The translations under genes and the position numbers were made by a program. DNA of 64,000 bases from Ruminiclostridium papyrosolvens DSM 2782 (GTDB taxonomy: Bacteria; Bacillota; Clostridia; Acetivibrionales; DSM-1351), in NCBI RefSeq assembly GCF_029318685.1, contig NZ_CP119677.1:4517001-4581000 (forward strand), given 5' to 3'. Below are positions 24,371 to 64,000 of the stretch, piece after piece; within the stretch, counting starts at the first letter, position 1, and each line of letters starts with the position of its first letter. The notes below the pieces were generated by a model that made no database searches, was not told the origin of the DNA, and was given only the letters and a program-made list of their open reading frames with translations.

Positions 24371-24383
24371 AATTATATCCTTT

Positions 24384-25511
24384 CTAAAAACGATATAGTG
24401 ATTCCAAAAATGCCTCTACTCTGGTTTGCATTTGGGCAAAATTATTTGTATTTATCACTGTTTCAACAAGCAAAGATTTTATACCCTCTTCTGCAAATTT
24501 TCTCTTTACGTAGGCATATTCCATAAACTGTGGGTCACAAAATGGAAAATAAATAAATATTACTCCGTCACAATCAGCTTCCCTGAACTTATCTATAAGT
24601 ACCTTATCATAGCTTATATTTTCATAATTCTTTGCAGGGCAGAATAAATTGGACGTTACATTTGCAAAAGCATCCGGATATTTGAAGTCTCCACTGTCCT
24701 TTAGAGGTACAGTTCTTGCTCCTTCACATAAGTCATCACTTAATACTATTGCTCCACTTTCTTCTATGAGCTCAATTAACTTCAGATTACAGTTAATTAT
24801 TCCGGAAACAATAATTTTCTTTTTATCTGTTTGTATATACTCTTGTAAAGACAATTGTTCTAATAAGCTTTTAAGTAGCTCGTTATGCTTATCCTTAGCC
24901 ATGTAAAGTCCGGCTATTGTTACAGCCAAGCTATCGTATCCGCTGATTATTCCGGGCTTATTCCTTCTCAATTCATTGAGTTTAGAAAGTAGTTGTCTGT
25001 TTTCTCTATATATTTCATAACTTTTTTGAAGCATCTCTTCATCAATATCAATGTTCAATCTACTTTCTACCTCTGACTTAAAACCAGATATTGCACTCTT
25101 TATGTAGTCGTAAGAATATTGTGAATCCAGACTGGAAGGTATATTATAAATAAAAATATTTTTGTCAGTAATCCCGTGTGCTATACACGCTGTAACCTGA
25201 AGAGTGTCACAGCAATGACTGAATACAATTCCATCAAGAGAATCAGCATCCTCTGAACTTAGAAAATCAATAATACTCCTTGCAAACTCACAACAGTTAC
25301 TGGTAATATATTTTTCTGAATTTATATTCTTTTTAGAAAAGCCCATAATCCTTACGGGTATGTAGCCTGCTGCATGAAGAATTTCTTCCGGTGGAAATAT
25401 GCATGTATAGCCAATATATTTACCACCACTTTTAACTTTTTCTTCTTTAATATAATTTACAGGATCGTTAACAATTCTATGACATTCTCTATAAATATCC
25501 TTTATATCCAT
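24384..25511 (-). CDS. 2-hydroxyacyl-CoA dehydratase-like subunit (HgdB-type)
   Basis: A 375-residue second subunit of the same family as its neighbour, of the usual length for HgdB-type subunits. The family opening is YIGYTCIFPPEEILHAAGYIPVRIMG (from about residue 32); cysteines at 73/74 (SNCCEFARS), 100/101 (SHCCDTLQ), in DLCEGART, and at 325 (FPFCDPQF) are placed as cluster ligands in relatives. The end carries TRVEAFLESL. With the 446-residue partner it should form the catalytic heterodimer. It starts 15 bases after the last polyketide synthase gene, preceded by GGGAGGT. A role on a CoA- or ACP-bound polyketide, such as dehydration at an unactivated position or reduction of an unsaturated ring, is inference. 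Confidence 0.86.
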   Translation of the reverse strand: MDIKDIYRECHRIVNDPVNYIKEEKVKSGGKYIGYTCIFPPEEILHAAGYIPVRIMGFSKKNINSEKYITSNCCEFARSIIDFLSSEDADSLDGIVFSHCCDTLQVTACIAHGITDKNIFIYNIPSSLDSQYSYDYIKSAISGFKSEVESRLNIDIDEEMLQKSYEIYRENRQLLSKLNELRRNKPGIISGYDSLAVTIAGLYMAKDKHNELLKSLLEQLSLQEYIQTDKKKIIVSGIINCNLKLIELIEESGAIVLSDDLCEGARTVPLKDSGDFKYPDAFANVTSNLFCPAKNYENISYDKVLIDKFREADCDGVIFIYFPFCDPQFMEYAYVKRKFAEEGIKSLLVETVINTNNFAQMQTRVEAFLESLYRF

Positions 25512-25526
25512 GAATACCTCCCACCT

Positions 25527-28500
25527 TTATGTATGCCAGTATTTTTTTCTATTAAATATATATCCCGGCGCACTAACAATTTTAAGCTGTTGACCTAAGT
25601 AATAATTCTTCCAGTTAACCGCTGTCCCTTTAACATAAAAATTTGCTATAGCTGCTCTAAAAAGACTTACGGTACTGATTTTATCAATCTGAGTCAACTC
25701 AAATTTACTTTGTCCGTTAATATGTGCCGTCAGAGCTTCCTTGTTGCATTTTTCCGTTAAATCCTTTATTGATAATTCAGTCATACTGATATCATCAAGT
25801 GCAATAAGATTTTCCCCATTAGAGCCCATGAACTTACAATCTGTTTGGTTGTCATTAAGATTAATAGTCGTTATTTCATCTGTAATTAGCTTTTCTAGTC
25901 CGTTGAATTTTACAATTTTTGATATGATTAATGAAGAAAATACTCCTACTGTTCCCAAACTATATATTCCTTTGAAGCTAATTCCCAGACTAAAGAGAAA
26001 GTTGAATATGCAGAAATTATGAATTATGGTTAATACCAAATTGAAATCATTATTACTGCTTGCTTTTAACTCTCCACTTTTAATAAAATCTTTTATGTAC
26101 TGTATGTATTTATCAGGCAATTCTTTTAGTACACTGTCAAAGCAGTCTCTATAGAGTGAAAAGCTGTTGTAAAAGTTCAGCACATCCTCTTGTTTATGAA
26201 TAGCTTCATTGAGAACTAATATTCTTTCCGGGAACGTTTTTTCTTTATGTCCATAGAATATTCTATCCTTCATAGGGCCTTTTTCGACTAACTCTTGCAG
26301 TTTTTCTTTTATTCCTTCTATTGAGTCGCTTTCAACTGCCACCCTATACTTATGATGAGCTCTTCCATATGATAATGTATAACACAAATTTGAAAAATAG
26401 TAACGATTTTCTTGTCGATTTATAGAATTTATTATTTTCTTGTATATTTCTGTCATAGTGTTTTCGTTCTGAGAGGATAGCACTAATAAATAACCATTAT
26501 TGTTGCATTCATTTACATCATACAGGGGCGTTTGTATGTATTCCTCCACTACAACATGTGCATTAGTTCCTCCAAATCCGAAACAATTTATCCCGGCTCT
26601 TCTGGTATATCCATTAGGCTTCCAATCAGATAATTTATCATTAATATAAAATGAAGAACCTGCCAAATTTATTTTGCGATTTGCTTTATTAAAATTTAAC
26701 ATAGGAGGCAGCTTACGCTTTTTGAGTGCCATTATTACTTTAATAAGCGCCATAATTCCGGCAGCTGATTCACAATGCCCGATATTCCCCTTTGTTGTAG
26801 CAATTGCACAGAACTGTTTTTTATCAGTTGCTTGTTTAAAGGCATCTGCCAAAGCTTTAAACTCAGTATAGTCACCTAACTTTGTTCCGGTGCCGTGTGC
26901 TTCAATATAGGATATTGTATCTGCATCTATACCTGACTTCTTATAGGCTTCCAGTATTGTTTTCTTTTGTGCTACAGGGCTTGGAGTATTAAGTCCGTTA
27001 GTCTGACCTGCATGCATCACAGAAGTACTTTTTATTACAGCATGTATATTGTCCCCTGCTTCAATTGCTTTAGACAGAGGCTTCAATAACACAGCACCTA
27101 CGCCTTCACCTCTTATATAACCATTTGCATAATCATCAAATGGTCTGACTTTACCATCTGTCGATAAAAGTCTTGCCTTAGAAAATATAATATTATTATC
27201 AGGAGCCAAAGTGAGATTAACTCCTCCCACCAGTCCCATTTCACATTCTCCTTGCAAAATATCCCGGCAGGCATTATGCAAGGCTACCATTGAGGATGAA
27301 CATGCTGTATCCACAGCCAAGCTCGGCCCCGTCACATCTAAAACATATGAAATTCTGTTAGCAACTATTGAAAAGGTATTGCCTGACGCTAAATGAGGGG
27401 ATAAATTTTTATAGTCCTTTGATTTTAGGTGAGCGTATTCATTGTTGCATATGCCTATATATACTCCTGTTTTAGTTTTAGCTAACCTTCCGTTACTGTA
27501 ACCTGCATCCTCTACGGCCCTCCATGCAACTTCCAGCATGAGTCTTTGCTGAGGATCTATCATTGACGCCTTGTTAACTGATATACCAAAAAATGCAGGA
27601 TCAAATTTATCAATACCATCTATAAAGCTTCCATATCTGCAGTCAGTTTTTCCCAGTTCCTCCGGATCAACAGAATAGTACTCTTCAATATTCCATCTTT
27701 CTTTAGGAATTTCTTTTATGGAGGTATATCCCTCACATAAATTTCCGAAGAATTCTTCGGCCTCTTCTGTCCCCGGAAACCTTCCTGCAAGACCAATAAC
27801 GGCTATGTCATAACAACCGTCTTGTGTCTTTTTATATATTTTTTCTTCTTTTATAATTTCATCAGTTTTTTTAGCCTCAATAATTTCAGAGGATCTGGCT
27901 TCACTGATGGTTACATCATCAGCAGCTTCCTTCTCGTCCGCTAACCCATTGGCTAATTGTTCTCCATACGTTTCAAGCAAAAATTCGGCATATTTATTTA
28001 TAGTATTATATTCAAACAGTTCTGTAGGGTCCAACTCCATATTTAATGAGTTCTCATATCTTGCAATAACTTTACCCGAAATAATAGAATCAAAGCCTAT
28101 ACAATCTAAGGTTTCGTTAATGTCTATCTCTTCTTTTTCGTATCCCATGCTTTTATTTATCTCGTCCAAAAAAATGTCTATGATTTTGTCTTTTATTTCT
28201 TCCTCACTTATTTTATGAGGTTTTTCAGATACTATATGTTGCTCAATAGACGCAACAGCTTCAACCACTTTTTCTGCTCTCGAAGTATTAGCCTGAACCT
28301 GCCCCGCCCTCTGGACTTTGTTTGTATTATCCTTGAGAGCTTTCAGTGTTACCCAGTATCTCTTATCTTCAAAAGGATATGTAGGAAGTGGTATTATCTG
28401 ACCCTTACTCTTAAAATAATCGCTCCAATTAATTTCGCACCCTGAGCTATATAGTTTAGCAACTATATCATGTATGAATTTAGTACCTGAAACTTGTCTT

Positions 28501-31500
28501 GAACCGGCTGTTATCCTAGTTTCACAATACTGGTTTCTATTATCTCTGTATAAAGGCTCCACTACACCAAAGTCAATAGCTATATCATATTTTTCTTCTA
28601 GCATAGGAGTTTCTGCTATAGAGTTATTATTAGTATCTCTAATAACTTTTTCAAAAACATATTTATGATTATATATTTGATTACCGGCTTTAATAATATC
28701 TGCTAAAACAGCACCTCTGCCTGCTCCAATGGCCATTTTAGGCTTAATTCCCCACTTCATAAAAAGCACTGCCAACGCATATTGATAAGCGGTAATTGCT
28801 ACTCCCAGCTGATAGTTTGTTAATGTTGTAAAAGCACTGCCACTCTTAGTTTCTAATAGTTCAAGTAAAGTTTCACTGTCCTTCGGTTCTGCTTCATTTA
28901 TAAACTTCTGATAATACTGTTTAAAGTCTTCTTCCTCCATGAATAATGCAGTGATATTTTTGATGGTAGTTTCATAATCCAAGTTCTTTGCATTAGGAAA
29001 AACAAATAAACAACTTCCTTTTTGTTTCGCCTGTTCTTTACAATTACTGTAAATATTATTACTTTCTATTTCAGTGTCTAATCCTCTAAGTGATATTATT
29101 TCAAGTTTATCTTTTAATTGTTCAACATCTTTACAAACAAGAGCTATTCTTTTATTAAAATGCTTTCTTCCTACTCCCAGTGTATAGGATATATCTTCTA
29201 TATTGTGGTCAGTTGTAATATAATTAGAATTCTTCGCCAAGTAATTTTTGAGATTTTTCACTATGCTTAAAAGAGCTTCCTTTGTTCTTGCTGATAAAAG
29301 AATAACCACTGAAGTTCTTGCAGGAACATTTATATTTTGTGTCCTTTGTACCTTTCCAACAGGCTGCTGCAATATGACATGTGCATTAGAACCCCCCATG
29401 CCAAAAGAACTCACGGCTACCGTCTTAGTAATATCTTTTCTATCATATCCGGTTACTTTATCTGCAATAAAAAATGGAGTGTCTTCCAATTTTGCCAGTG
29501 CATTTGGCTCATTAAAATTCAAGTTGGGAGTGAGTAGCCCACATTTAAAGCTCATCAGTGCTTTCAATATTCCTGCTATACCTGACGCAGGCTCAAGATG
29601 TCCTATATTTGTTTTTAAAGCTCCTATTGCGCAGAATGATTTCTTATCCGTATACTTGTTGAATACATTAGTTAGAGCCTTTATCTCCAACGAATCTCCA
29701 TATAGGGTTCCTGTGCCATTTGTCTCAACGTACCATAAATCGGATGGATTGACGCCACTGTCCCCGTAGGCCTTTAAAAGCAACTGCTCTTGAGCTTTGG
29801 GATTTGGTGCCATAAGTCCATTAGATTTTCCATTATTATTTACTGCATATCCTTTTATAACTCCATATATAGTGTCTCCATCCCGTAAAGCCTTTTTGGC
29901 GGACTTTAACATAACAAAGCCCCCTCCTTCGCCGGGAACAACACCATTGGCATTCTTATCAAATGCCTTACACTTTCCATCCGATGAAAGAAGGCTCAAC
30001 TGAGAAAAGCCCATATAATGTTCCGGCGGAATAAGAAGTCTTATACCTCCGGCGAGAGCCATTGAACACATACCACTTCTAATACTGTCACATGCGGAGG
30101 TAACTGCAATTAAAGAGGATGAGCATAGTGTTGCAACATGTTCACTGGGTCCTTGCAGTCCAAAAGAGTATGAAATCCTGTTTGCTATAACTGCAGCCTT
30201 ATTCCCTAGCAGTAAAAACGGGCTGTCTGTATCTTCACTCTTACTAATTATGTCTTCGTAACAATTGTAGGAAGAGCCTACAAATACCCCTGTATCAGTA
30301 TTCATGGACCTCTGTGCATATCCGGAAGTTTCAAGAGCCTCCCAGGCCAGCTCGAGCATAACTCTCTGCTGAGGATCCATAACCTTTGCTTCGTTTGGTG
30401 AAATTCCGAAGAAGGCTGCGTCGAACTTATCAACATCCTTTACAAACCCGCCCCATCTGCAACTTACTTTTTCAGAGTCTTCTTCTTTTAAACCACTTAT
30501 ATACCCCTGCCAGTCTATTCTGTCATAGGGTATTTCTTCAACTTTATTTACTCCTGCCGCTAAGTTACTCCAAAACTCCTCTATGTTAGCAGCTCCCGGC
30601 AGTCGGCAAGAATATCCTATTATAGCTATGTCACTATCATCATATACTGTTTTTATATTGCTACTGCTTACTTCTTCTTTGTACTGTTTTTTAGGTTCTT
30701 TCACAATATTATCTATTTGTATAGGCTTTGATTCCTCTTTTAATTCGCCGTCATCTCTTACATGTAACTCTTTTTCTTCTGTTGTTATCTGCGCTACATA
30801 GTCGCTTAACTCATTTATATTTTTATATTCAAAGAATACCGTAGGTTCAAGTTCGACTTTAAATTCTTCAATAATCCTCTCAACTATATTACCAACAATT
30901 ATTGAATCCACTCCGTAGTCGCTGAAGGCTGCGAACCCATCAATTTCTTCTATGTCTATACTCAGAACCTCGGACAATATGATCTTAATCTTGTCCTGAA
31001 CTTTTATTTCATAATTATTATCAGAAAAATCCTTCTTTGGGTTTTCAATTACATTCCCTTCATGCATTCCTTCAATTATATAATCAGATATTTCATCCAC
31101 ATTTTTATATTCAAAAAATATAGTCGGATCTATTTCCATGTTAAATTTAACATTTATAGCTTCCACTATCTCGCTGGCATTTATTGAATCAATGCCATAA
31201 TCAGTGAAGGATGTAGTACTGTCAAATTCTACAGCATCTAACCCAAGTTTTATTGAAAGGATTTCTATTATATCTTGTTGAATAGCATCTTTGGATTTTA
31301 CAGCATTAATTGCACATTCCTCTAATATAGGTTTTTCAGTTCTTTCAACTGATTCACTTATGTTGTCTATCCCCAATACCTTTAAGTAAACTTTATCAAA
31401 ATCAAACTTATCCTCTTTTGTGGGTACGAAGGCTATGTTTTTATATGACGAACCCAAAATTCTTTTAAAAGCCTCAACACCCATCTCTTTGGATATACTT

Positions 31501-33692: not shown

Positions 33693-33726
33693 AAAAGCAC
33701 TTCCCCTTTAACAATCTAAAAATTAC

Positions 33727-34521
33727 TTAAACAAATCTTTTCAGTACAAAATGCGAAAAGTCCATTACTAAAGAGCCATCTTTATTACAGACCAATATGT
33801 CATATACCAACTGCTCCGGATTTTTTGAGCTATCACAGTATGCAACACCATAGCAGTAACTTATATCCTCCGGTTGTTTATAAACACGAACCCTTCTTAT
33901 AAAACTTGGCAAATAAATATTTTTGGGGCTTCCACGATAAATGGCTCCTATTGATTGTATTACCCCATCTATTATTGAAGGGTTAATTGTAAAAGACTGG
34001 TTTTCTGAATTTATATTGCTGTTTTTTATAGTTGATAAAAATTCAAATTTATTTGTATAAACTTCCTCAACTGTTTTGTAATACTTCCCATATAGTATGC
34101 CGCTATCCTCATATCTTTTATAAAATTCATTTTTATTGATTATGCCTTGGCATCTTGTTCTAATTTCATTAAGCATCAAGGAATCCCCCCGCAAAATAGG
34201 GGACTCACTTACTTTACCTAATGCATGTATAATGTTCTTATCCTGTACACTACTCATTACCTTAAATCTGAACATAGAATTATCATACTCCAGATGAACC
34301 GCTGCTTTTGTGGGCACATCCTCTTCAACAACCATTGCGTTTGTTATATTTATATCTGAAAATTCAATACCTTGGAGCTTTTTGTCTTGTGTTAACGGCA
34401 GCATAACCAATGCAAAATATACTGCTGCCGGTACAACACATCTGGACATAACTTTATGGTCACTGATAAAATTTTGGTTTATTGATAAGAAGGTTTCATA
34501 TATTTTGTGTGAATCATTCAT
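33727..34521 (-). CDS. Free-standing polyketide dehydratase (DH) domain
   Basis: A 264-residue single-domain protein with the double-hotdog dehydratase fold of polyketide synthases: HKVMSRCVVP (the HxxxGxxxxP motif with Ser for Gly) and IIDGVIQ (DxxxQ), so both catalytic residues are present. It lies between a protein ending in KS-AT and one starting with a second DH, so two dehydratases serve one split module. It could dehydrate, shift the double bond to beta-gamma, or support the structural link between the two large proteins. The gaps to its neighbours are 21 and 34 bases and GGGGGAAA precedes the ATG. Confidence 0.85.
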   Translation of the reverse strand: MNDSHKIYETFLSINQNFISDHKVMSRCVVPAAVYFALVMLPLTQDKKLQGIEFSDINITNAMVVEEDVPTKAAVHLEYDNSMFRFKVMSSVQDKNIIHALGKVSESPILRGDSLMLNEIRTRCQGIINKNEFYKRYEDSGILYGKYYKTVEEVYTNKFEFLSTIKNSNINSENQSFTINPSIIDGVIQSIGAIYRGSPKNIYLPSFIRRVRVYKQPEDISYCYGVAYCDSSKNPEQLVYDILVCNKDGSLVMDFSHFVLKRFV

Positions 34522-34542
34522 TTCTTTTCCCCCAAAGTATAA

Positions 34543-53500: not shown

Positions 53501-56500
53501 GAACTCTTTTCCTTTTATACAGCGTATGGTATGAAAATTAAGTTCTTTAAGACATTTTTCAACTCCATCATGGAAACTGTCATTGTTACATAAAATTAAT
53601 ACAGAAAATTCATTACTGTTGCCAGATATAGAACTTTCCTTTTCAACGAATTTAGGAATATAGAAATAGCCATTTCTTTTTGACTTATTTAATGAATGAA
53701 TATTTATATGGGTATTTATTTTTTTGAATGAGTGACCTTGTATTGTTATCTTCACATTTCCTTCAGTATCAGTAATGAGGATATCAGCAGTTATTACCTC
53801 CTTACTATTTCTGGTAATCTTTAAATAGCTATACCCTTCCGACTGAAGCGGTTCATGTATGGAAACTTTATTTACAAGAAATGGGATAAAAGTATCATTT
53901 TTCGATTCCTCATTTTCCTTCAACCCTATTATCGATTGTAAAGCTCCATCCACAAAGTTTGGATAATAGAGGGTTCCATTATTTATTAATTCATCTGTTC
54001 CAGATAATTTCAATTTAGCTATAACACTATTTTCATTTGCCCACAGCTGCTCTATACTTCTGAAGGTACTTCCATAAGCTACACCCTTGCTGTTAAATTT
54101 GTTATATATTTCATCAATAGATACAGGTGATTTACGAAGTTTATTAATCAAATTACTCAAATCTATTCGTTCATTACTAGGGCTATCTCCAAATTCTATA
54201 CTTCCACCGGCGCATAACTTCCAATCGTCTCCATTGTCAGTTTTGTACATAACTTTAAAATCGGAATTATCAATGCCTTCATAAATAATCTTAATTTTAA
54301 GGTTATTTCCATCTTTCAGTTCAAGCTGAGTAATATGTTTAATTTGTTTTAAAGCTGCAACATGCTTTTTGAATTTTTCAGCAGTATTTCTGATTACAGC
54401 TTCCCATAATGCAACCCCCGGAAAAACCTTCACTCCGTTGACTATATGGTCCCTAACCACAGGATTAAATTCATTTATTGTCTCAACTACATCCTCATCC
54501 TGCAAAGATAGGTTGTGGTATCTTTTGCCTTTATATTGTTCAATCCAGCATTTCTCCCTTTCAAGAGGACATATCGGAACCAATTCAGTTCTGGGCTTTT
54601 TAGCCTTAAAAATACTAAAGTCCAAATTTAAACCTGATGTAAATAATTCTGCTGCTGCACTGTTTATACAACTTATTTCGCCTTTATTTTTATTTAAAGA
54701 AGGTATTATTCGTATTCCATCTCTTCCTTTTAATATATCTTTAATCATATTCGAAGCAGATGTGCCGGGCCCGGCTTCGAGGAATATATTAATGCCATTT
54801 TCTGCGGCTGTGTTTATACTCTTTTCAAACATTACAGTCTGCATTAAGTGATTTTTCCAGTAATCTTTATCCAAGGTACCTTTTTTTATAAGGTTTCCCG
54901 TAACATTTTGAACCAAAGGTATTTGTAAATTATTAAAAGCAACATGTTCTAAGGCTCTTTCAAACTCTTCAACAATAGGGTTCATAAGAATTGAATGAAA
55001 GGCGTGAGAAACAGACAGCTTCACATATCTTATTCCTCTTTCGGAGAGTAGCTTTATTATTTTGTTTATAAGTGTAAGTTCACATGAAATTACAGTATTT
55101 GACGGGCTGTTAATTGCAGCTATGGATATGGAGTTTTGTTGGTCAGCTGACAGCTCATGGATTAGCTCTAAAACCTTATGGTGTGGCATAAAAATTACAA
55201 TCATCCCACCATTTAGAGGAAGGCTTTGAATAAGATTGCCTCTGATACAAATCAACTTTAATGCATCTTCCAAGGTTAATATACCGGATATACATGCAGC
55301 AACGTATTCACCTACACTATGTCCAATAACTACCTTAGGTCTGATACCGCTCTTTATCCATACTTGCGCTAAAGAATAACATATGGAAAACAAAGCAGGC
55401 TGCGTATAACATGTCTGATTTAAAAGCTCTTCATTTTCTTTTTTGTATATTATGTCTATTAAGGGTCTGTCCAAAAACTCACTTGCAAGGGCATTACATT
55501 CATCAAAGGCTTTCTTGAACACAGGTATCTGCTGATACAGCTTTTCTGCCATGCCTATATAATGTGAGCCCTGTCCCGGAAAAACCATAGCAACGGAGGC
55601 CTTAGTAAAGCTGTTATCCCTTGTATATACTTTAAGGTTTTTGACTCCCAAAATTTCATTGGTCTCTGCCAGTTTAAGTTTATCTATGGTATCCTGTTTA
55701 TCCTGAACGCATAAAGCTGTCCTGTAATCTAACATTTCTCTGGCAGTATTAGCAGTATAAATAAAGTCTTGTAAATTTATTGAACTGTTATTTTCCAGTG
55801 CAGTTCTATAGAGATATGCTAATTTCTGAAGATTGTATACATTTTCAGCAGAAAGCGTTAATACTTGTTCTTCTTTTATATCTTCCGTAGCTGTTTTCTT
55901 TTTATCAATGTATTCTTCAAGAACCATATGACAATTTGTCCCGCCAAACCCAAAGGAACTAATGGCAGCTCGCCTTATGTTATCAACAGGCTCCCAATTT
56001 TGTAAGGACATAACCGGATAAAAAGGTGAGTTTAAAAAGTTTAGTCTTGGATTAGGTATTTCACAATTTAATGTAGGAACAATTTTTTTATTGTAAAGTG
56101 AAAGAATAACTTTAATAAAACCGGCTACTCCGGAAGCCGTATCTAAATGTCCGATGTTAGTTTTTACTGAACCGATAGCGCAATAACCTTTTTTATCAGT
56201 ATATTCTTTAAAAATCTCAGTCAACGCTTTGATTTCAATAGGATCACCTATTACCGTACCTGTTCCGTGAGCTTCAACATATGATATGGTAGACGGCTCT
56301 GTCTTGGCGTTTTTATATGCTTGCCTTAAGACATCCTTCTGACCGTCGTAATTGGGAGTTGTTATTCCCATAGTATGTCCGTCGTTATTAACACAAGACC
56401 CCGAAATTATACCATATATTATATCCCCATCTTTCAAAGCTTTTTCCAGAGGTTTTAACAGAACTGCACCTCCGCCTTCTCCCGGTACAAATCCATCAGC

Positions 56501-57328
56501 TCGCTTGTCAAAGCTGTAACACTTTCCATCTATAGAAAGAGCTTTTGAATCACTAAGGGTAAGGTAAGGCACTGGGGTAAGTTTCAGATCAATACCTCCG
56601 GCTAATGCCATATCGCATTCCCCTTCATTAAGCATTTTGCATGCATTATGAATTGCTACCAGAGAGGAGGAACATGCGGTATCAATGACATAACTGGAGC
56701 CTTTAAGATTAAAAAAATCTGAAACTCTTGCAGCTATGAAATTAGTTATATTTCCTGTTAATTTTTTGGGTGTTCCATATTCATCGTCAGAGGTATTGTA
56801 GGTACTGGCTCTAGAACCTACAATTACAGAAGTTCTTGAATTCGAAAGCTGTTTTTTTGAATAGCCGGCTCTATGAAATGCTTCAAGTGCAATTTCTAAG
56901 AATACTCTTTGTTGAGGCTCTATATATTGAGCTTCATCTTTATCAATTTTGAAAAAAGCTGTTGCAAACTTATCTGCATCCTTGATAAAGCCGCCCCATT
57001 TTGAGTAGCTCATCCCTTGCTTTTTACCATCGGGGCTATAAAATGAGTCCACAGGGCACCGCTCTGAAGGATATTCAGATATACAATCTTTCCCCGTTAC
57101 TAAATTATTCCAAAAATCTTCAGGACTATCTGCCTGGGGGAATCTTAAAGCCATTCCTATAACTGCTATCTTTTGGTGTTCTTTATCCTTATGTCCGGCT
57201 TCAGGAACGACAGTTTTATATACATTCTTGAAAGATTCCTTCAATTCTTCAATTAATAATGACGCTGTTTTTTTATCTATACTATTATTCTCTAATAATT
57301 CAAGTATGGCTTTTACTAACCGTTCCAC
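47570..57328 (-). CDS. Modular polyketide synthase: KS-AT-DH-KR-ACP / KS-at0-KR-ACP
   Basis: About 3252 residues. I start at the GTG at 57328, with GGAGG seven bases upstream; it overlaps the preceding TAG stop by one base (TAGTG). Docking helices 57328-57190; KS 57172-55910 (DTACSSS, EAHGTGT); AT 55595-54600 (PGQGSHY, GHSVG with serine codon at 55318, HAFH: malonyl type); DH 54520-53720 (HIVNGVKVFP, FVDGALQ); KR with structural half 53650-52990 and catalytic half 52980-52270 (GGLNGLG, FSS, DYAAAN); ACP serine 52015. Second module: KS 51755-50490 (DSACSSS); decayed AT 50200-49560 (VTAKSQL at the nucleophile); KR to 48030 (GGASGLG, DYSAAN); ACP serine 47872 and a C-terminal docking tail. It predicts one double bond, then one hydroxyl group. 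Confidence 0.94.
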   Translation of the reverse strand: MERLVKAILELLENNSIDKKTASLLIEELKESFKNVYKTVVPEAGHKDKEHQKIAVIGMALRFPQADSPEDFWNNLVTGKDCISEYPSERCPVDSFYSPDGKKQGMSYSKWGGFIKDADKFATAFFKIDKDEAQYIEPQQRVFLEIALEAFHRAGYSKKQLSNSRTSVIVGSRASTYNTSDDEYGTPKKLTGNITNFIAARVSDFFNLKGSSYVIDTACSSSLVAIHNACKMLNEGECDMALAGGIDLKLTPVPYLTLSDSKALSIDGKCYSFDKRADGFVPGEGGGAVLLKPLEKALKDGDIIYGIISGSCVNNDGHTMGITTPNYDGQKDVLRQAYKNAKTEPSTISYVEAHGTGTVIGDPIEIKALTEIFKEYTDKKGYCAIGSVKTNIGHLDTASGVAGFIKVILSLYNKKIVPTLNCEIPNPRLNFLNSPFYPVMSLQNWEPVDNIRRAAISSFGFGGTNCHMVLEEYIDKKKTATEDIKEEQVLTLSAENVYNLQKLAYLYRTALENNSSINLQDFIYTANTAREMLDYRTALCVQDKQDTIDKLKLAETNEILGVKNLKVYTRDNSFTKASVAMVFPGQGSHYIGMAEKLYQQIPVFKKAFDECNALASEFLDRPLIDIIYKKENEELLNQTCYTQPALFSICYSLAQVWIKSGIRPKVVIGHSVGEYVAACISGILTLEDALKLICIRGNLIQSLPLNGGMIVIFMPHHKVLELIHELSADQQNSISIAAINSPSNTVISCELTLINKIIKLLSERGIRYVKLSVSHAFHSILMNPIVEEFERALEHVAFNNLQIPLVQNVTGNLIKKGTLDKDYWKNHLMQTVMFEKSINTAAENGINIFLEAGPGTSASNMIKDILKGRDGIRIIPSLNKNKGEISCINSAAAELFTSGLNLDFSIFKAKKPRTELVPICPLEREKCWIEQYKGKRYHNLSLQDEDVVETINEFNPVVRDHIVNGVKVFPGVALWEAVIRNTAEKFKKHVAALKQIKHITQLELKDGNNLKIKIIYEGIDNSDFKVMYKTDNGDDWKLCAGGSIEFGDSPSNERIDLSNLINKLRKSPVSIDEIYNKFNSKGVAYGSTFRSIEQLWANENSVIAKLKLSGTDELINNGTLYYPNFVDGALQSIIGLKENEESKNDTFIPFLVNKVSIHEPLQSEGYSYLKITRNSKEVITADILITDTEGNVKITIQGHSFKKINTHINIHSLNKSKRNGYFYIPKFVEKESSISGNSNEFSVLILCNNDSFHDGVEKCLKELNFHTIRCIKGKEFKRIDKTTTEMDFSNADNFNNMFNNLYSEGIQTIKVINFLPKTNIDYFSREKDKYFRSSEEAVIDFISLMQAIEMNKALKVSKILTVSDECFSKNNLFNTFKSVISGVVKTVAKEYPNIKMSLVNTDDCTASSLCKLIINELNSESNDLVVKYKNQKRFIQTIEQTSSQPATSAMGKIKKEGTYLITGGLNGLGFSIAQIISQKYGADLILVGKSKFPDREEWDSYLQGTYSDDNFSTKIKAIRTMEANGSKVKIFNLDVTYRYEVETLFDQLGDNLKLDGIFHMAGVIRDSLIRNKSAEDVNKVLSPKIQGSVNIVETFKKVNPSFIVFFSSIASFFGSIGQSDYAAANSFMDDYADFISKNLGISAISINWTLWDAVGMGVRSGQADAKKRIGMQPFGIEDGYEALEEILGLNVSQVIALNNSIEEMALPTAAPSQEIKNHPQESLPKTQTNEIDFVDVEFVIEDELITKISEILDISKKDINIDINFMELGLDSISIVDFTSWVADRINAELYPTLLFEYSTIKDFSQYLFSNHADCFKKLINETKEIKSSVEIIEAIKEEQETESVQADSPKPEQHQQNNNDVAIIGFAGMFPGAKNVDEYWEILKNGVNSVTALTEEKFIQGNKDSDIWGGFLQNVEYFEPLFFNISPKEAIFVDPQQRLFLETAWNTLDMAGYSSKRLNNQTVGVYVGASQVEYKKLCENSGITSPYMGLGNSLCVIANRVSYLLNLKGPSLTVDSACSSSLVALDIAYNAIVNKQVDMAIAGGVQLYFSTDAFKVFKAAGMLAKDGKCKTFDEQADGYVRGEGVGSVLLKPLNKAIEDGDNIYAVINGIAVNHDGNDKVGISAPNPNAQKQVILEAIKRADITPQDISHVEAHGTGTALGDPVEIKALTQAYREYTDKNSFCAISTAKSIIGHLESSSGVAGLIKTVLMFKNKMLPPTINFNKINPHIPFTSTPFYINDKLRPWDRGGAKKYASVSSFGFGGTNCHVILSDYETESKNERDAVSNTNVLAISAKTLYSLNAIIRDLEEYIDKNPYIRLQDLCFSMNTGRDSFDYKACFVADSISDLREKLKYAAMKGVENSPKSGAVIYDLNSSKSSRFAVVLGNTTKIDMDLLLNIKKSDNLNLIYELNKIAVNLTGDSLEEIIEKKNYHSAVRIMSFISAYVTLKTLKVLGLEPAVYVTAKSQLMLAAVLTDAISLETALEALIKDESISINISSKKIRVIEDGDIDRNEIVQSILSEARIDKVFAIEWENTASDYQIMNITSLPETLAKAFLSGLEPDWTKYYQGEKYNRLILPMYPFERKRYCIDSVIEANNNVTNNDILIKKETVKKKNENSSNLIKAGLTNQIDKPNSLFSYKWKKVEKVSLGDYELKNKKIIVFSNQEVERKAFLETLEKNNLEYIVVEVSDSFRGITQTHYQLNPMEENSYTQLFEAVLKGNSSEVLIVHMWNVSHNISPIVENIEEIEKWLSLGLYSIFFIGKAIHKYEANIRLLFVTNSTHNLFEEKNILSAIKYSSCIGLESLTKENPRIKSKSLDIDGQEKDSEIIADCIFHELKTSSFEAEQICFRDGIKYVRQLEKIQDILTGSDKEIAESFKAIMIVGGASGLGLRLAKYYLQKYRCKIIIVGRTELSDNDNSQEAVKRSEELSRLVEAGYSVEYICTDVTSYEGVEQLSEHIRLKYGELDGLIHCAGVVEDALVVNKDFKSFKKVISPKIFGSYILDKLVPVKKSGFFIMMSSLASVEGNPGQMDYSAANAFMDYYASVGDKGVRKVSINLPFVLDGGMKVDSKYIKHISQKGLGPIKSQEVIQAVNSILQNIDINNAVVLPTYNVNKDSNAIQRFLKTTLAKLLYMEEEQIDTNLEFSNFGLDSLIIGDMVKAIEEYLGGSIPHSVFMEHSNISKLTEYLCKTHKGKVSALPKPQDNKVAKPDIKQLRMNILKDVSNGKMDRAEGLEALLNLEGRGSFATESR

Positions 57329-60300
57329 TATAGCTCCTCCCAAATACTCTTTTTACCTATTTGAGCAACTATTTGCTCACATGCACTGTTTATATCAATG
57401 TCACCTTTTGCAAATTTATCAATAATGCTATTAAATGGATTAGTAAAATCCAGTCTTATGTGTTCTTCTTTATCTAACACTACACTTTTATTTAATTCTT
57501 CCTCTGTGATTGTTTCAGCCATTTCAGGTATATAATGACTAAGTTTTTCTGACAGGTACCCGGCTAATTCAGCCACATTAGGATACTCTAGAAAAATACT
57601 TGATTCAATTTGAGTATTAAATTCTCTTTCAAATAATACCGTTGCTTCTTTTATTAACATAGAGTCCATGCCATAATCTCCGAAGTTAACACTATCATCC
57701 ATTTCTTGAGGGTCTAATATAAGAAGTCTCAAGATTAAAGTTCTTACCTTTATCAAAATATATTTTTTGACATTATCTTCATTTTCGGCATTATGTAACA
57801 AATTATCACATCTATTTTTATCAATATTATTACATGGAACCCTACTTTTTCCATTTTTATTGTAGCACTTAATTTTATTGCTGTAAACCCCGGGGATGAT
57901 TTTCAAGGCTGAACCCGTATGCTTCATAGCACAGAAAGTATTAATATCTTTATGTGAGAGGGATACCTTCAATGCCTCAATGACTTCCTCCAGTTCTACG
58001 GAATATATGCCATAATTCTCCATTCTTTTTAATACTATATCCGTTGATTTCATTCCACCTCCATTTACAAAGGGTAAACACAGTGAAATAACTCTTTTGG
58101 CTGACTTTTTGAAAGCTGACTTTGCATAACTATTATAAAAGCAGTTAGCTACTGAATAATCTGCTTGTCCCTGATTGCAGAAATACGACGAAACTGATGA
58201 CAATAAAAGTACAAATTCTACAGGCTTATTGCTAAATATTCTCTCGAAATTGAGCAAGCCTTTAACCTTTGGAGAAAGAACTTTCTTAAAGGCAGGAAGC
58301 TCTTTGTTTTGCAATAATGAATCATCCTTAATTCCTGCACAATGGAATATACCGTTTACTTCGCCAAAATTATCCTCAATCTTTTTAACGGTTTTTTCTA
58401 GTTCAGTCAAATCAGCTACATCGCAACTAAAATACATAGTCTTAGAACCTGCTTTTTCAAATTTGGCTATAGCTTCCTTCAATTTTTCTGAAGGTTCCTG
58501 ACTTCTTCCTATAAATGCAATTCTAACAGGGGCTTGCTTTACCACAAATTCAGCAATTTTTACTCCTATATTTGACCCGCCGCCGGTTATAATATAGGTT
58601 CCCATACTTTTTATACAGTTGCTATTGCTGGGTTCAACATTTATTTTCACAAAGTCTTTAACAAACCTTTTTCCTTTTCTATAACATACATCCATATTTC
58701 TGTCGGCAGTCAGTAATTCATCTGCTACGGTTCCTCCTATAAACTCCAAATCTGCACTTGCTTCGTAATCCAGATTCAGAAAACTAACGCCCTTTTCTTC
58801 ATTGGAAAATACTTTAGTTAATACCTGCAAAGACTGCATATGAGGATAGATGTTTAACTTTTCGTTATATGTATTATCTCCATTAAATGTAAGGGTAATA
58901 AAGTCAACCTTTTCTGTTTGTTTATTTTTAATAAGAGACTTAATTATATTAAATAGTGAACTCAGGTTGTCATAAAAATCTTTTTCGACATTATTGATAC
59001 TTAAATTATCATTCTTAACTGTGCTGCCCGGAATATAAATTATCCCTGAAATATTGATATTTTTAGTTTTTAAGTAATCAAACAAATGAGTGTAATGTTC
59101 TTTTGTTGAAGCGTCAATTTCAATGTAATTATTTGCTATATAGTACTTTTTGCCCAAATATACAGTAATACTATTAATATCTTCTGAGGATAATTGTCTA
59201 CTGATATGCTGAGACAACCCATCAGTACCGTCAAATATTATGTAGCTGCCCTGAAGCTTAATATTTTGTTTTTCCGTTACAGGCTCTTCCTGCCAAGTAT
59301 TATCATAAAAACTTATAATATTATTTTTCTCTTTGATGTTAGCAGTAGCCTTCAAATTAGGCTCAACCTTTTCACGAGAAGCGGCTTTAGAAACCTCTGT
59401 CCAATATGACTTCAAATTGAAGGGATATAGTGGTAAGCTAACTTTTTTATACCTCTTGGAAGCGTAGAATGACTGCCATCTTATGCTCACACCTGCCTTG
59501 AATAATTGTGCTATTAAGCTTAAAAAGTCAAATCTGCTTTCCAGATTGCATTCAATAAGCTTACTAAAAATCTCAGGGGCCTCTTTACTGTAATCAATTT
59601 CAGTTATTTCTTTCCCGCTTCCTCCTAAGTGTATAATACAGTCAGTTTTATTTTCACTTATATAGGTTGTAATTGGAGTATCAAATACAGATATTTCCTT
59701 AGCGAGTTTAAATGCTTGTACTAATTCTGCATTTTCAGTAACAAGCTTGTTATTAATAATTGATACCACAGGATAGTTTCCATCATTTACATTTATGGTT
59801 ATGTCCTCTTTATTTAGAACTATCATAATTGCATCCCTAATAGATATACCACCGGATAAAGCCACCCCAGCTATTATTTCCCTGCCATAAGCTATCACGT
59901 ATGAAGGCACGACGCCTAAACTTTCCATAGTTTTCCCGGTGGAGTAAGCTCTAAAGAGTTGCTCCAATTCGTCTTCCGCCTCTACATTTATTTCCAAGTC
60001 AAGTTCCTTAAAAATCTCCCAGCATTCCTCCATTGTTTCATTAAACATGTCATTATCTAAAGACTTTTTATTTGTATTTAAATAGAAAGCTATTTTTTTA
60101 TCTTTCTTTAAAACAACCTGTTCTGAAGTTTCATCAACAAACCGTTGAAGTTTCTGCTTTAATTCCTCCACTGAATAAACAACTTCCGCAAGCCTGCTGT
60201 CCAGTTGTCTTTTACCTACAGCGGATGTATAACATATATCACTTAAACTAAGCTCCTCATTGTTTTCCATCATTTCTGTAAAAGCTTTTGCAAAGCTTCT

Positions 60301-63300
60301 CAGGGATGCTCTGTTAGCAGCTGAGAGTGTGAATATATGCGGAATCTGTTCTTCTTCCGAATAGTTACTATCAATTCTATAATTGTCTGCGCTCTCAATA
60401 ATAATATGTGCATTAGTACCGCTGAAACCAAAAGAACTTACCCCTGCTCTTAAAACTTCAGAATCCCAGTTCCTTAGCTTATCATTTACAAAGAATGGAG
60501 TATTTTGAAGGCTCAATATGGGGTTCATTTCTTTAAAATTTATTGAAGGAGGAAGTTTTTTCTCTTTCATTGCAAGTATAACCTTTATTATACTCGCTAC
60601 CCCTGCTGCTGCTTCCGCATGTCCAATATTCGACTTTACTGAACCTATGGGACATGATGATTTATTTAAAATACCGTCATATACTTTATTAAGTCCTTCT
60701 ATTTCTATAGGGTCCCCTATAAATGTACCTGTACCATGAGCTTCTATGTAGGAAATGGTTTCAGGGTCTACTTTTGCCTTGTCCAATGCCTTTTTTATTA
60801 CCTCTGACTGTGCAGCTGGGTTAGGTGCAGTTATTCCGTTTGAAAAACCATCGTTATTTAATGCTGTACCCTTTATTACTGCATGTATGATGTCACCATC
60901 TTCTAAGGCCTTATCCAACGATTTAAGTAACAGTACTCCAACCCCTTCTGAAGAAACAAATCCATTAGCAGATTTATCAAATGTCTTACAGCTTGCAGAA
61001 AGTGCATTCATAGTTTTAAAGGTACCGCAGCTATCGGGCGTAACCAGAAGATTAACACCTCCGGCCATAGCCATATCGCAATCACCTGTTAAAATACTTT
61101 CACAAGCAAGATGTAATGCAACTAAAGAAGACGAGCACGCAGTATCCACTGCAATTGCGGGGCCCTTTAGATTTAACCAATAGGATATTCTGCTGGCAAG
61201 CATGGAGTGTGTATTTCCTGTAACTGAATATCCTTGAGATTGGGTAGGTATTTTATCAATTATGTCCAGATAATCTCTTCTGGAAACCCCAACAAATACA
61301 CCCGTATTTACCGGAAGTGTTCCGGTATAACCGTACCCTGCATTTTCAATTGCTTCCCAGGCTTTTAGCATGTATAACCTTTGCTGAGGGTCCATTACTA
61401 TTGCTTCAGCAGGAGATATGTTAAAAAACAAGGGGTCAAATTTATCTATGTCCTCTATAAAGCCTCCCTTTATATTGGTTAAATCATAATCTTTATCTAT
61501 AGGCAATAACTCTCTCCGGCTTTCTGGAAAACTATTAATCGAATCAGTTGCTGAACATAAATTATCCCAATATTGTTTCAAATTTTTTGCTCCCGGAAAG
61601 GCACCTGACATACCTATAACTGCTATATCAGAATTACTGGAACCCTTTGTGATATTTGTTTGCGCTATTTGCTTTTCCGTCATTGACTTTATATCCGGAA
61701 AAGTCAGTATTACCTTGCCTACATTTTTTCTGGATGCCATATAAACAAAAGCATCTCTCATATCTTCATATTTAAATGAGGTTACATTGATAGGCTTTAA
61801 GGTTCTGCTTTTTAACATTTTATCCATAGCATTTATATGCTTATCCAATGTCTCTTTACTAAGCCTCTTTAAATCCATGCTGAAGAAGCTTTGATTCTCT
61901 ACAAAGATGCTTAAGTCAATTTTAGGTGCTGCTCTCAAACCGGCCATACCCATCTCTAAAAATCTTCCGTTAGGTGCAACCAGCTTCATTAAGCCTTCTA
62001 TCTCATCCCCGGAGGAAGATGTTAAAAGTAAGTCTACACCTTTTCCGTTTGTCACCTTCATTACAAATTCATCCACGTTTTCTTTTCTATAGTTTACTGT
62101 ATGGTCTACTCCTATAGAATTTAAGTAATCAGCTTTTTCATCTGAACCAACAGCACCAATAACTACAGCCTTTGCTGCTTTAGCTATCTGAATAGCCATG
62201 AGCCCGACTCCGCCGGCAGCACCTCTTATTAATATAGTCTCATTTTCCTCTATTTTCCCCAAATAGTTTAAGCAGTGGTGTGCAGTAAGAAATACTATTG
62301 GCAAAGCAGCTCCTTGTGAGAAACTCATATAAGCCGGTTTTTGCCAAACTGTACTTTCATCTACACTTACAAACTGAGCAAAGCCTCCGATGCCTTTTGT
62401 AAGTCCTATTACCTCCTGACCGACCTTGAACCTTAAAACTTCCTTACCAACTCTTTCAACAATCCCTGAAACTTCATTTCCTAATATATATGGGTATGTA
62501 TTTAATGCGTTAGGATAGTTACCAAGTACAGTCAGTACATCTGAAAAGTTTATGCCTGCTGCTCTTACCTTTATAAGAACTTCCTTTGGGCCTATCTCAG
62601 GGATTTTTGTCCCATTTATAACCAAATTATTAAAACTTCCGGGCCTTGTTATAAGTATGGCTTTCATTTTGTCTACATCTTCATAACATTCTTCCTGTGT
62701 ACATTTACTTTCAGTAGGAATAGGCTCTTCACCGGTTTCTGCTATTATTTTCTGTTCCTCTGTTTCAGCTGGTTCTGTTTCCGCTTCAACTCTGGAAGTT
62801 AACAGTGTTTCAAACTCTGTTTTATATTCCTCCAGCAGATAACTTGATAATTTCTCCACATTGTTATACTCAAAAAATACCGTTGGATAGAGCATAATTC
62901 CAGCATCCTTTTCCAATTCACTGCTCAAATTTATCAGTGTTATGGAATCGATGCTTAAATCTAAAAATGCTGTGTTGGTATCTGTTTCATCAATAACAAT
63001 GCCTATTAATTTATCTATTTTGCTTATTAAGTATTTTTTTGTTAGTGTTTTTAGTAATCCAATCTGATTACTACCTTTTTTTACCACAATTCCTTTGGCA
63101 ACTGAATCAGCCGTAGGCTTACTATGTTGTACAGCTTTAACCTCTATCGGTGCTTGACTGTCGTTATTCATAAGTACCTGTACAGCTCCCGTTGACAAAA
63201 TTCTTTTGAAAGCATCTATTCCTTGTTTATTTGTAATAGGACTTAAATTTCTACTCTTCAAAGACTCTATTATATCAGGTTTAGCTGCCATTCCTGTTTC

Positions 63301-64000
63301 TCCCCAGAACCACCAGTTTATAGCAATTGTCCTTGCCTTCTGCTCCATTTGCCTCTTGAAAGCGAAGGAATCCATAAACATATTTGCACCTGCATACGCA
63401 CTCTGGCCTTGGTTTGGATAAAAGCTTACCATTCCTGAAAACAGAATCATAAAATCCAGATTTTCCTTCCGGAGCAGTTTATCTAAAATCAATGTTCCTT
63501 TAACTTTTGGTGCAAATACTTCCTTTACATCTTCAATGGAGCTATTTACAGATATACAGTCCTTTACAATGCCGGCAGCATGAATTACTCCTGTTATACC
63601 GCCAAAATCCTCTTCTATTCTGCCAATACATTGGCTCATGCTGACTTCATCAGCTACGTCTGCCTTGTAGTAAGCGGCTTTTGCTCCATATTCTTTAAGT
63701 TCATCAATAATTGCAGTTTCTTTATTACTTCTTCCAATTAATGCGATATTACTTTTATAGTTTTTTGCTATGAACTTTGCAATTTCGCTGCCCACACCTC
63801 CAAGGCCCCCTGTAATAACATAAGTGCCCTGACTTTTAAAGTAGATATTATCGAACTTACCTTTATTAAGCTTAACTATATCTCGCACCCACCTGCTGTT
63901 TCTCCTGTAAGTTACCAATTCTTGGGACGGGTCACTTAGTTCATTTAATAAAACCTCATAAATGCCTATGTTTTCATCTGAATCAATACTGAAGCATTTT
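57328..64000 (-). CDS. Modular polyketide synthase, 5' end outside window: ..KR-ACP-ER / KS-at0-KR-ACP
   Basis: The frame is open to the right edge (first full codon at 63999), so the N terminus lies beyond the window; at least 2223 residues are visible. KR from 63999 to about 63220 (GGLGGVG, FSG, AYAGAN); ACP serine 62946 (SIDSI); a medium-chain enoyl reductase 62667-61690 (AAGINFSD, RGAAGGVGLMAIQ) placed after its ACP; KS 61634-60390 (DTACSSS, Cys codon at 61137; EAHGTGT; SNIGHAE); decayed acyltransferase 60340-59400 (AYGREI where GHSxG should be), closed by LPLYPFNLKSYW; KR to 57950 (GGGSNIG, LSS, DYSVAN); ACP serine 57663 (GMDSM); C-terminal docking helices. The gene probably starts many kilobases upstream. 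Confidence 0.93.
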   Translation of the reverse strand, partial: KCFSIDSDENIGIYEVLLNELSDPSQELVTYRRNSRWVRDIVKLNKGKFDNIYFKSQGTYVITGGLGGVGSEIAKFIAKNYKSNIALIGRSNKETAIIDELKEYGAKAAYYKADVADEVSMSQCIGRIEEDFGGITGVIHAAGIVKDCISVNSSIEDVKEVFAPKVKGTLILDKLLRKENLDFMILFSGMVSFYPNQGQSAYAGANMFMDSFAFKRQMEQKARTIAINWWFWGETGMAAKPDIIESLKSRNLSPITNKQGIDAFKRILSTGAVQVLMNNDSQAPIEVKAVQHSKPTADSVAKGIVVKKGSNQIGLLKTLTKKYLISKIDKLIGIVIDETDTNTAFLDLSIDSITLINLSSELEKDAGIMLYPTVFFEYNNVEKLSSYLLEEYKTEFETLLTSRVEAETEPAETEEQKIIAETGEEPIPTESKCTQEECYEDVDKMKAILITRPGSFNNLVINGTKIPEIGPKEVLIKVRAAGINFSDVLTVLGNYPNALNTYPYILGNEVSGIVERVGKEVLRFKVGQEVIGLTKGIGGFAQFVSVDESTVWQKPAYMSFSQGAALPIVFLTAHHCLNYLGKIEENETILIRGAAGGVGLMAIQIAKAAKAVVIGAVGSDEKADYLNSIGVDHTVNYRKENVDEFVMKVTNGKGVDLLLTSSSGDEIEGLMKLVAPNGRFLEMGMAGLRAAPKIDLSIFVENQSFFSMDLKRLSKETLDKHINAMDKMLKSRTLKPINVTSFKYEDMRDAFVYMASRKNVGKVILTFPDIKSMTEKQIAQTNITKGSSNSDIAVIGMSGAFPGAKNLKQYWDNLCSATDSINSFPESRRELLPIDKDYDLTNIKGGFIEDIDKFDPLFFNISPAEAIVMDPQQRLYMLKAWEAIENAGYGYTGTLPVNTGVFVGVSRRDYLDIIDKIPTQSQGYSVTGNTHSMLASRISYWLNLKGPAIAVDTACSSSLVALHLACESILTGDCDMAMAGGVNLLVTPDSCGTFKTMNALSASCKTFDKSANGFVSSEGVGVLLLKSLDKALEDGDIIHAVIKGTALNNDGFSNGITAPNPAAQSEVIKKALDKAKVDPETISYIEAHGTGTFIGDPIEIEGLNKVYDGILNKSSCPIGSVKSNIGHAEAAAGVASIIKVILAMKEKKLPPSINFKEMNPILSLQNTPFFVNDKLRNWDSEVLRAGVSSFGFSGTNAHIIIESADNYRIDSNYSEEEQIPHIFTLSAANRASLRSFAKAFTEMMENNEELSLSDICYTSAVGKRQLDSRLAEVVYSVEELKQKLQRFVDETSEQVVLKKDKKIAFYLNTNKKSLDNDMFNETMEECWEIFKELDLEINVEAEDELEQLFRAYSTGKTMESLGVVPSYVIAYGREIIAGVALSGGISIRDAIMIVLNKEDITINVNDGNYPVVSIINNKLVTENAELVQAFKLAKEISVFDTPITTYISENKTDCIIHLGGSGKEITEIDYSKEAPEIFSKLIECNLESRFDFLSLIAQLFKAGVSIRWQSFYASKRYKKVSLPLYPFNLKSYWTEVSKAASREKVEPNLKATANIKEKNNIISFYDNTWQEEPVTEKQNIKLQGSYIIFDGTDGLSQHISRQLSSEDINSITVYLGKKYYIANNYIEIDASTKEHYTHLFDYLKTKNINISGIIYIPGSTVKNDNLSINNVEKDFYDNLSSLFNIIKSLIKNKQTEKVDFITLTFNGDNTYNEKLNIYPHMQSLQVLTKVFSNEEKGVSFLNLDYEASADLEFIGGTVADELLTADRNMDVCYRKGKRFVKDFVKINVEPSNSNCIKSMGTYIITGGGSNIGVKIAEFVVKQAPVRIAFIGRSQEPSEKLKEAIAKFEKAGSKTMYFSCDVADLTELEKTVKKIEDNFGEVNGIFHCAGIKDDSLLQNKELPAFKKVLSPKVKGLLNFERIFSNKPVEFVLLLSSVSSYFCNQGQADYSVANCFYNSYAKSAFKKSAKRVISLCLPFVNGGGMKSTDIVLKRMENYGIYSVELEEVIEALKVSLSHKDINTFCAMKHTGSALKIIPGVYSNKIKCYNKNGKSRVPCNNIDKNRCDNLLHNAENEDNVKKYILIKVRTLILRLLILDPQEMDDSVNFGDYGMDSMLIKEATVLFEREFNTQIESSIFLEYPNVAELAGYLSEKLSHYIPEMAETITEEELNKSVVLDKEEHIRLDFTNPFNSIIDKFAKGDIDINSACEQIVAQIGKKSIWEEL

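Follow-up and report, generated by a model that had tools for sequence, protein, structure and literature searches.

Ketosynthases (KSs) that keep part of an acyltransferase (AT) have a precedent: Lohman et al. are said to have described, in 2015, a "partial AT-domain" on OzmQ KS1 of oxazolomycin. The structure of this trans-AT KS is PDB entry 4oqj. The step that lies between a cis-AT and a trans-AT assembly line is loss of the AT. Excerpts of the literature place mixed cis/trans-AT clusters of polyketide synthases (PKSs) and nonribosomal peptide synthetases (NRPSs) in Clostridium cellulolyticum and C. papyrosolvens, as CcelB, CpapD, and CpapF (Behnken and Hertweck 2012, PMC3250452), propose AT displacement along with module duplication in algae (PMC4661987), and describe the complementation in vitro of AT-null DEBS by discrete ATs (PMC6164871). 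Here we describe a PKS of Ruminiclostridium papyrosolvens DSM 2782 in which intact ATs alternate with truncated ones. The genome (G000) is 5.03 Mb in one contig; the window, as used below, is its 64,000-nucleotide stretch G000:C1:4517001-4581000. We consider it probable that this is a mixed cis/trans-type PKS grown by repeated two-module duplication, in which the truncated AT is an inactive scaffold and the AT-less modules are loaded in trans.

Organization of the assembly line

The PKS consists of eight proteins, D to K in transcription order, whose genes start at about G000:4626037 and extend along the minus strand to 4542527. There are 18 KSs in the full line, of which the window carries the last nine (G4, H1, H2, I1 to I4, K1, and K2; window positions 25527-63999, minus strand; Table 1). 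An intact AT follows seven of the 18 KSs and an AT remnant without the nucleophile, here called psiAT, follows nine; in the other two (D2 and I3) the AT region is absent. The distance from the KS end to the post-AT motif is 407 to 419 aa with an intact AT (n = 7), 266 to 307 aa with a psiAT (n = 9), 113 aa in D2, and 130 aa in I3, the last comparable to the 121 to 129 aa of the post-KS region in trans-AT modules of the same genome (n = 8). A cis-AT PKS has an AT in every elongation module, whereas 11 of these 18 KSs lack an intact one; a trans-AT PKS has no integrated AT, whereas 7 of the 18 have it. The line has the makeup of a mixed cis/trans-AT PKS, with AT-bearing and AT-less modules together.

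The recurring element is an AT/psiAT bimodule, which occurs five times (E, F, G1-2, G3-4, and H). Proteins F and H are each one KS-AT-DH-KR-ACP-KS-psiAT-KR-ACP unit (DH, dehydratase; KR, ketoreductase; ACP, acyl carrier protein). Protein G is this unit twice, and two bimodules have extras: G3-4, with an enoylreductase (ER) after the ACP of G3, and E, with a methyltransferase (MT) and a flavin oxidoreductase (KS-AT-DH-KR-MT-ACP-KS-psiAT-flavin oxidoreductase-KR-ACP). The remaining proteins are arranged differently: D is KS-psiAT-DH-KR-ACP-ACP-KS-(none)-KR-ACP, I is KS-AT-ACP-KS-psiAT-DH-KR-ACP-KS-(none)-ACP-KS-AT, J is a DH alone, and K is DH-KR-ACP-ACP-KS-psiAT-ACP-KS-psiAT. A preliminary description of the window had proposed a mixed line with repeated AT/AT-less bimodules, and both proposals hold for the full line. 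Its count of nine KSs, three of them (H1, I1, and I4) with a GHSVG AT, is confirmed, and the five remnants that it listed (G4, H2, I2, K1, and K2) have exactly the elbow sequences given (Table 1), measure 279 to 297 aa, and end in the post-AT linker motif. I3, the sixth AT-less KS of the window, was not listed.

Apart from the AT, the AT-less modules look largely complete. The C-H-H residues are kept in 10 of the 11 AT-less KSs (K1 lacks one His), the carrier Ser is found in the ACPs of AT-less modules, and after most AT-less KSs come KR and ACP domains that retain their motifs. These features argue against mostly passive AT-less modules that hand the chain through without elongation. Such passivity may apply at the end of the line, where the KS of K1 lacks the His of HGTGT and, judged by its motifs, is probably non-elongating, and where K2 lacks an ACP; as an account of the AT-less modules in general it is unlikely.

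The psiAT as a truncated AT core

In the alignment, the nine psiATs correspond to identical portions of the AT, and all nine lack the same small subdomain of about 90 aa, which includes the His of the HxFH motif. The deletion is common to all 12 aligned relatives (from 11 other genomes, plus an own-genome paralogue), which were taken as the best remnant-profile match per genome and hence chosen for likeness. Both the KS-AT and the post-AT linkers are kept in the nine, the AT between them is incomplete, and neither the nucleophile nor the HxFH His survives in any of them, which is the makeup of a partial-AT KS. From these residues, the psiAT is probably inactive in acyl transfer.

The preliminary description had taken the remnants to be AT-derived, and profiles and alignment agree with it. 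The search that it suggested, with Pfam Acyl_transf_1 (E <= 0.001), finds all seven intact ATs and none of the nine psiATs of the line; the same family does match the psiATs of some relatives, roughly over positions 1-120. A profile of 14 intact ATs from this genome scores G2, I2, and K1 at 42.1, 24.6, and 17.0 bits, above the best of 2,200 shuffles (11.5), and the other 8 of the 11 AT-less regions individually do not exceed that maximum. A profile built from all AT-less regions except F2, which is split between loci (10 of 11 used), matches the CurL KS-AT over positions 1-178 (E 3e-32) and the ZmaA AT over positions 2-177 (E 8e-30), a match that comes partly from the KS-AT linker, and phmmer aligns the I2 psiAT with the CurL KS-AT at E 4e-13. 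An AlphaFold2 (AF2) model of the I2 KS-psiAT, with a predicted local distance difference test score (pLDDT) of 83.5, superposes on the CurL KS-AT over 705 of 741 residues (root-mean-square deviation 2.5); in the G4 KS-psiAT model the pLDDT is 78.3 and falls to 40 to 51 at residues 631-650 and 671-690. An unrelated insertion was also considered as the origin of the psiAT and is ruled out by the AT profile matches, the alignment, phmmer, and the superposition on CurL.

Selection was followed in four near-orthologues from the genus, KS-psiAT proteins that are paralogues of the line's modules and not the line itself. In six of six pairs, the ratio of nonsynonymous to synonymous substitution rates (dN/dS) of the psiAT is 0.18 to 0.20, compared with 0.03 to 0.06 for the KS and 0.15 to 0.25 for the region after the psiAT. 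The psiAT of these near-orthologues is under purifying selection. Judging by these related bacteria, the results suggest that the shortened AT is a maintained part rather than debris.

No close relative of the line was found by the remnant-profile search of 60 genomes or by genome scans. In the 60 genomes, own included, the best score elsewhere is 155 bits; own psiATs score 261 to 300 (eight listed), values inflated by their having built the profile. A scan of genome contigs with the G2 KS-psiAT, which may omit own or very near genomes, found no orthologous line and returned one locus, a trans-AT PKS of Acetivibrio alkalicellulosi without a psiAT. Homologous proteins with the order KS-AT-KR-ACP-KS-psiAT are present in G004, G026, and G054.

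History of the truncation

From the differing elbow sequences, the preliminary description concluded that the ATs had been lost repeatedly and independently, and here our results part from it. In a 76-row KS tree, one clade (SH-aLRT 99) takes in six of the line's seven AT-bearing KSs, and the 11 AT-less KSs plus I4 cluster with 13 trans-AT-type KSs (SH-aLRT 89, an unstarred branch). This tree was a quick search with two labels set by hand (Acetiv_3 to none, G035C1_1 to psi), and the KS classification left out two unclassified KSs (own824_2 and G010C235_1). In a 25-row KS tree, five of the seven AT-bearing KSs stand together (91/90), with F1 unresolved beside them. On the latter tree, approximately unbiased (AU) tests reject a single clade whether it is to hold all seven AT-bearing KSs (p 0.006) or all 11 AT-less KSs (p 0.027). 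Among the AT-bearing modules the exception is I4, whose KS lies among the AT-less KSs.

Nine independent in-place decays would account for this second AU result, for elbows that differ remnant by remnant, and for the presence of the truncated form on several KS lineages across the order. On the KS tree of the order, the psiAT label needs eight changes, at least four of them forced by well-supported (starred) branches, so at that scale this truncation was gained, lost, or transferred at least twice. Within the line, however, the deletion is identical in 9 of 9 psiATs and the KSs group, and nine separate decays are very improbable. The KS grouping and the shared deletion favor descent from a single AT/psiAT unit by duplication, with a degree of exchange. 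The further proposal of the preliminary description, a cis-AT line turning into a trans-AT line, is only a loose fit. The AT-less KSs are positioned near trans-AT KSs, which makes a mosaic built from two KS lineages just as likely.

Modules G3 and I1 share a block of 1.95 kb with 92% DNA identity (blastn) that spans the second part of the KS, the AT, and the post-AT linker, where it ends; the KSs of G3 and I1 are only 66% identical overall. This block is a recent AT copy inside the line, and ATs move as blocks. A repeat search inside each of two regions separately found no repeats. On the order of events, one truncated AT in another genome (G035:C1; L030, 121605-122612) has lost most of the small subdomain and retains GHSIG, which suggests that subdomain loss can precede nucleophile loss and that this AT is a possible intermediate.

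Loading of the AT-less modules

If functional, the AT-less modules must be loaded in trans, and one loader probably serves several of them. A trans-AT PKS has a discrete AT in or near its cluster; here the nearest Pfam match is 535 kb off, with none closer, no discrete AT was found among the flanking genes scanned, and the 20 kb beyond (L043) showed neither an AT nor a KS. The preliminary description had named such a gene in the operon upstream as a finding that would lessen the novelty of shared loading. Seven discrete ATs are found elsewhere in the genome: FabD in the fab operon, four further ATs, and two AT-PfaD fusions, one of them below the PfaD cutoff. The AT at G000:3506220 is fabD-type (328 bits) and lies about 10 kb from an own psiAT paralogue. 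In an AT tree, likewise a quick search (own3516 joined-locus ATs were skipped, that AT being already included), it falls with own 2365605 in a clade (98) together with discrete ATs encoded at loci with psiATs in G010, G054, G040, G056, and G035.

These seven genes, together with the kinship and position of 3506220, speak for the classical trans mode, in which a single discrete malonyl-AT encoded elsewhere (G000:3506220, 2365605, or FabD) would load every AT-less module; it is a real possibility, if short of an even chance. The cluster also includes a stand-alone PfaD trans-ER, an enzyme that commonly accompanies trans-AT lines. Against this mode stand the 535 kb to the nearest discrete AT, the fact that the candidates adjoin other biosynthetic genes, and the genome G004, which has no discrete AT except FabD. 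In G004 (same genus, 100% complete), psiAT modules occur in two clusters with one cis-AT in each, and a genome-wide Pfam search (E <= 0.01) returns the two cis-ATs, FabD (flanked by PlsX, FabH, FabG, and FabF), and the psiAT itself (17.7 bits), and nothing else.

The G004 clusters speak for shared loading, in which the intact AT of each bimodule would load its own ACP and that of the adjoining psiAT module, the psiAT giving room to, or docking, the visiting AT or ACP. The five AT/psiAT pairs of the line, the lack of a discrete AT within 535 kb, and the KS-AT-KR-ACP-KS-psiAT homologues in three other genomes are consistent with it. Simple 1:1 pairing fails, however, for D1 and D2, which have no AT on their protein, while I2 and I3 would both depend on the AT of I1 or I4, and FabD stays a candidate loader in G004. 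We put this mode forward tentatively, as one possibility. The surroundings of other psiATs also weigh against it, since 20 of 30 outside the line are near a discrete AT. Within 30 kb, 17 of the 30 have discrete ATs only, three have both kinds, five have an AT in a large open reading frame (ORF) only, and five have none. Many of these 17 appear to be orthologues from a single cluster. The 30 are those rows of the profile search with E <= 1e-28 whose match covers most of the profile, not every one inspected by eye; weaker psiATs (G010:C235, G026:C52, G056:C191, G005:C84, and own 824 kb) are uncounted. A discrete AT here means an ORF of up to 600 aa (one of 577, one of 253); the "cis" cases include one AT-KS fusion, 1131 aa in length.

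Because discrete ATs sit near many psiATs, yet G004 offers cis-ATs and FabD alone, both a cis-AT neighbor and a discrete AT are possible as loader. A KR comparison gave no class signal (p 0.08), and an ACP comparison a weak one (p 0.04), with a mean identity of adjacent AT/AT-less ACPs of 0.256 vs 0.251. Each of the seven intact ATs carries a malonyl-type motif, HxFH or NAFH; with these motifs throughout, extender identity would not discriminate between loaders, and a shared loader would be chemically indifferent.

The reading that we favor, two-module duplication with loading in trans, would run as follows. A unit with KS-AT-DH-KR-ACP first and KS-psiAT-KR-ACP second would have been duplicated repeatedly. 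The psiAT would be the inherited AT core minus its nucleophile and the entire small subdomain, which is ferredoxin-like and holds the catalytic histidine of HxFH, probably unable to transfer acyl groups and retained as a folded scaffold for the KS-AT and post-AT linkers. The AT-less modules, otherwise complete, would receive malonyl in trans from the intact ATs of neighboring modules, from a discrete malonyl-AT (best G000:3506220 or 2365605, else FabD), or from both. What the data show directly is the layout of the domains, the common truncation, the presence of active-site motifs, the lack of a Pfam-detectable discrete AT nearby, and purifying selection on the psiAT of near-orthologues elsewhere; the function of the line, its duplication history, the scaffold role, trans loading, and the identity of the loader are all things that we infer. 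Bimodules in which one AT charges at least two carrier proteins, with the psiAT adapted to receive the visiting AT or ACP, are a more doubtful proposition. If true, one-AT-per-bimodule charging would stand between cis-AT and trans-AT as a third loading logic, with a minimal form in G004, and if one AT serves two modules, engineered lines could do with fewer AT domains.

Other features and neighboring genes

Table 1. Domains of the assembly line located in the window (window positions; HMM, hidden Markov model)
Feature	Position	Strand	Basis
ER of module G3, after ACP, before next KS	61690..62619	-	PF08240/PF00107
KS of module G4, AT-less	60259..61629	-	own KS HMM; C-H-H motifs
psiAT of G4, 291 aa, elbow AYGREI	59401..60273	-	KS-to-linker length, alignment, AF2 model
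KS of H1	55787..57172	-	KS HMM, motifs
Intact AT of H1, GHSVG, HAFH	54650..55594	-	PF00698
KS of H2, AT-less	50384..51748	-	KS HMM, motifs
psiAT of H2, 279 aa, VTAKSQ	49562..50398	-	alignment
KS of I1	46066..47463	-	KS HMM, motifs
Intact AT of I1, GHSVG, HGFH	44968..45906	-	Pfam; KS-end-to-linker stretch 97% identical to G3's
KS of I2, AT-less	43027..44406	-	KS HMM, motifs
psiAT of I2, 286 aa, YTDKGV	42184..43041	-	alignment, profile, phmmer, AF2
KS of I3, AT-less	38098..39453	-	KS HMM, motifs
I3 post-KS region, AT wholly missing, 130 aa, trans-AT-like length	37723..38112	-	length
KS of I4, placed among AT-less KSs in trees	35860..37242	-	KS trees
Intact AT of I4, GHSVG, NAFH	34729..35667	-	Pfam
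Dehydratase J, stand-alone, between I4 and DH-KR-ACP of K	33727..34521	-	PF14765, PF21089
KS of K1, HGTGT His replaced (ETNGTGT)	29229..30632	-	motifs
psiAT of K1, 297 aa, GAGRGA	28353..29243	-	alignment, profile
Terminal KS of K2, no ACP after	26412..27809	-	KS HMM, motifs
psiAT of K2, 297 aa, GTVGVF, protein's end	25536..26426	-	alignment

Several domains of the line are unusual in themselves. The catalytic Tyr expected in a KR appears to be missing from that of E1 (GQSNHTS region), which is probably inactive. Module E2 (L002:8327-11008) has, between psiAT and KR, an NADH:flavin oxidoreductase domain (PF00724) with clustered Cys, a candidate enoylreductase unusual in place and type. The ER of G3 is positioned behind the ACP, not between DH and KR. 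One split module has two DHs, J alone and the DH that opens K (25527-33692). Protein K ends in KS-psiAT without an ACP, and the G004, G026, and G054 proteins likewise stop soon after KS-psiAT.

Directly after the PKS (window 23030-25511) are two proteins like 2-hydroxyacyl-CoA dehydratase/benzoyl-CoA reductase (PF06050), the first of which has a match only in its own genome among 11 genomes of the genus (E <= 1e-30). A radical SAM protein related to the HutW/HemW families adjoins the PKS at window 21721-23025. Upstream of D (L003:8345-18921) lie FkbH, a MaoC-SDR fusion, two thioesterases, the stand-alone PfaD trans-ER, two HpnR-like B12 radical SAM proteins, and a 3-hydroxyacyl-CoA dehydrogenase.

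Comparison with known systems

By structure, the closest match is CurL KS-AT (PDB 4mz0), the top Foldseek hit by E-value, on which nearly all of the I2 model superposes. CurL differs in having GHSVG and about 150 more residues (896 vs 741), the psiAT being without nucleophile and small subdomain. OzmQ KS1 (4oqj) matches a larger part of the I2 model (Foldseek TMq 0.77) than do the ordinary trans-AT KSs listed (0.62 to 0.70), but the sequence match is confined to the last 45 positions, and OzmQ KS1 is reportedly a single case in a trans-AT line, whereas here nine psiATs alternate with intact ATs. The AT-docking region of trans-AT PKSs such as leinamycin is, in the excerpted source (PMC6164871), likewise a post-KS region kept without an AT; D2 and I3 (113 and 130 aa) are similar to it, and the psiATs are about 150 to 180 aa longer. 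CcelB, CpapD, and CpapF also combine AT-bearing and AT-less KSs in each cluster, with cis and trans KSs in separate clades, but they have 2 to 7 KSs, and the excerpts of that paper do not mention a truncated AT (PMC3250452); the present line has 18 KSs and five AT/psiAT units, with no discrete AT nearby.

Among the top matches in the open-licence PMC literature, no description of a regular AT/psiAT alternation or of a conserved truncated AT was found. A line with regular alternation, together with equally truncated relatives (the G035:C1 AT still having GHSIG), allows direct tests of which loss came first and of which AT does the loading. Neither mixed cis/trans lines nor a KS with a partial AT is new; the repeated, well-ordered alternation is a new variation on them.

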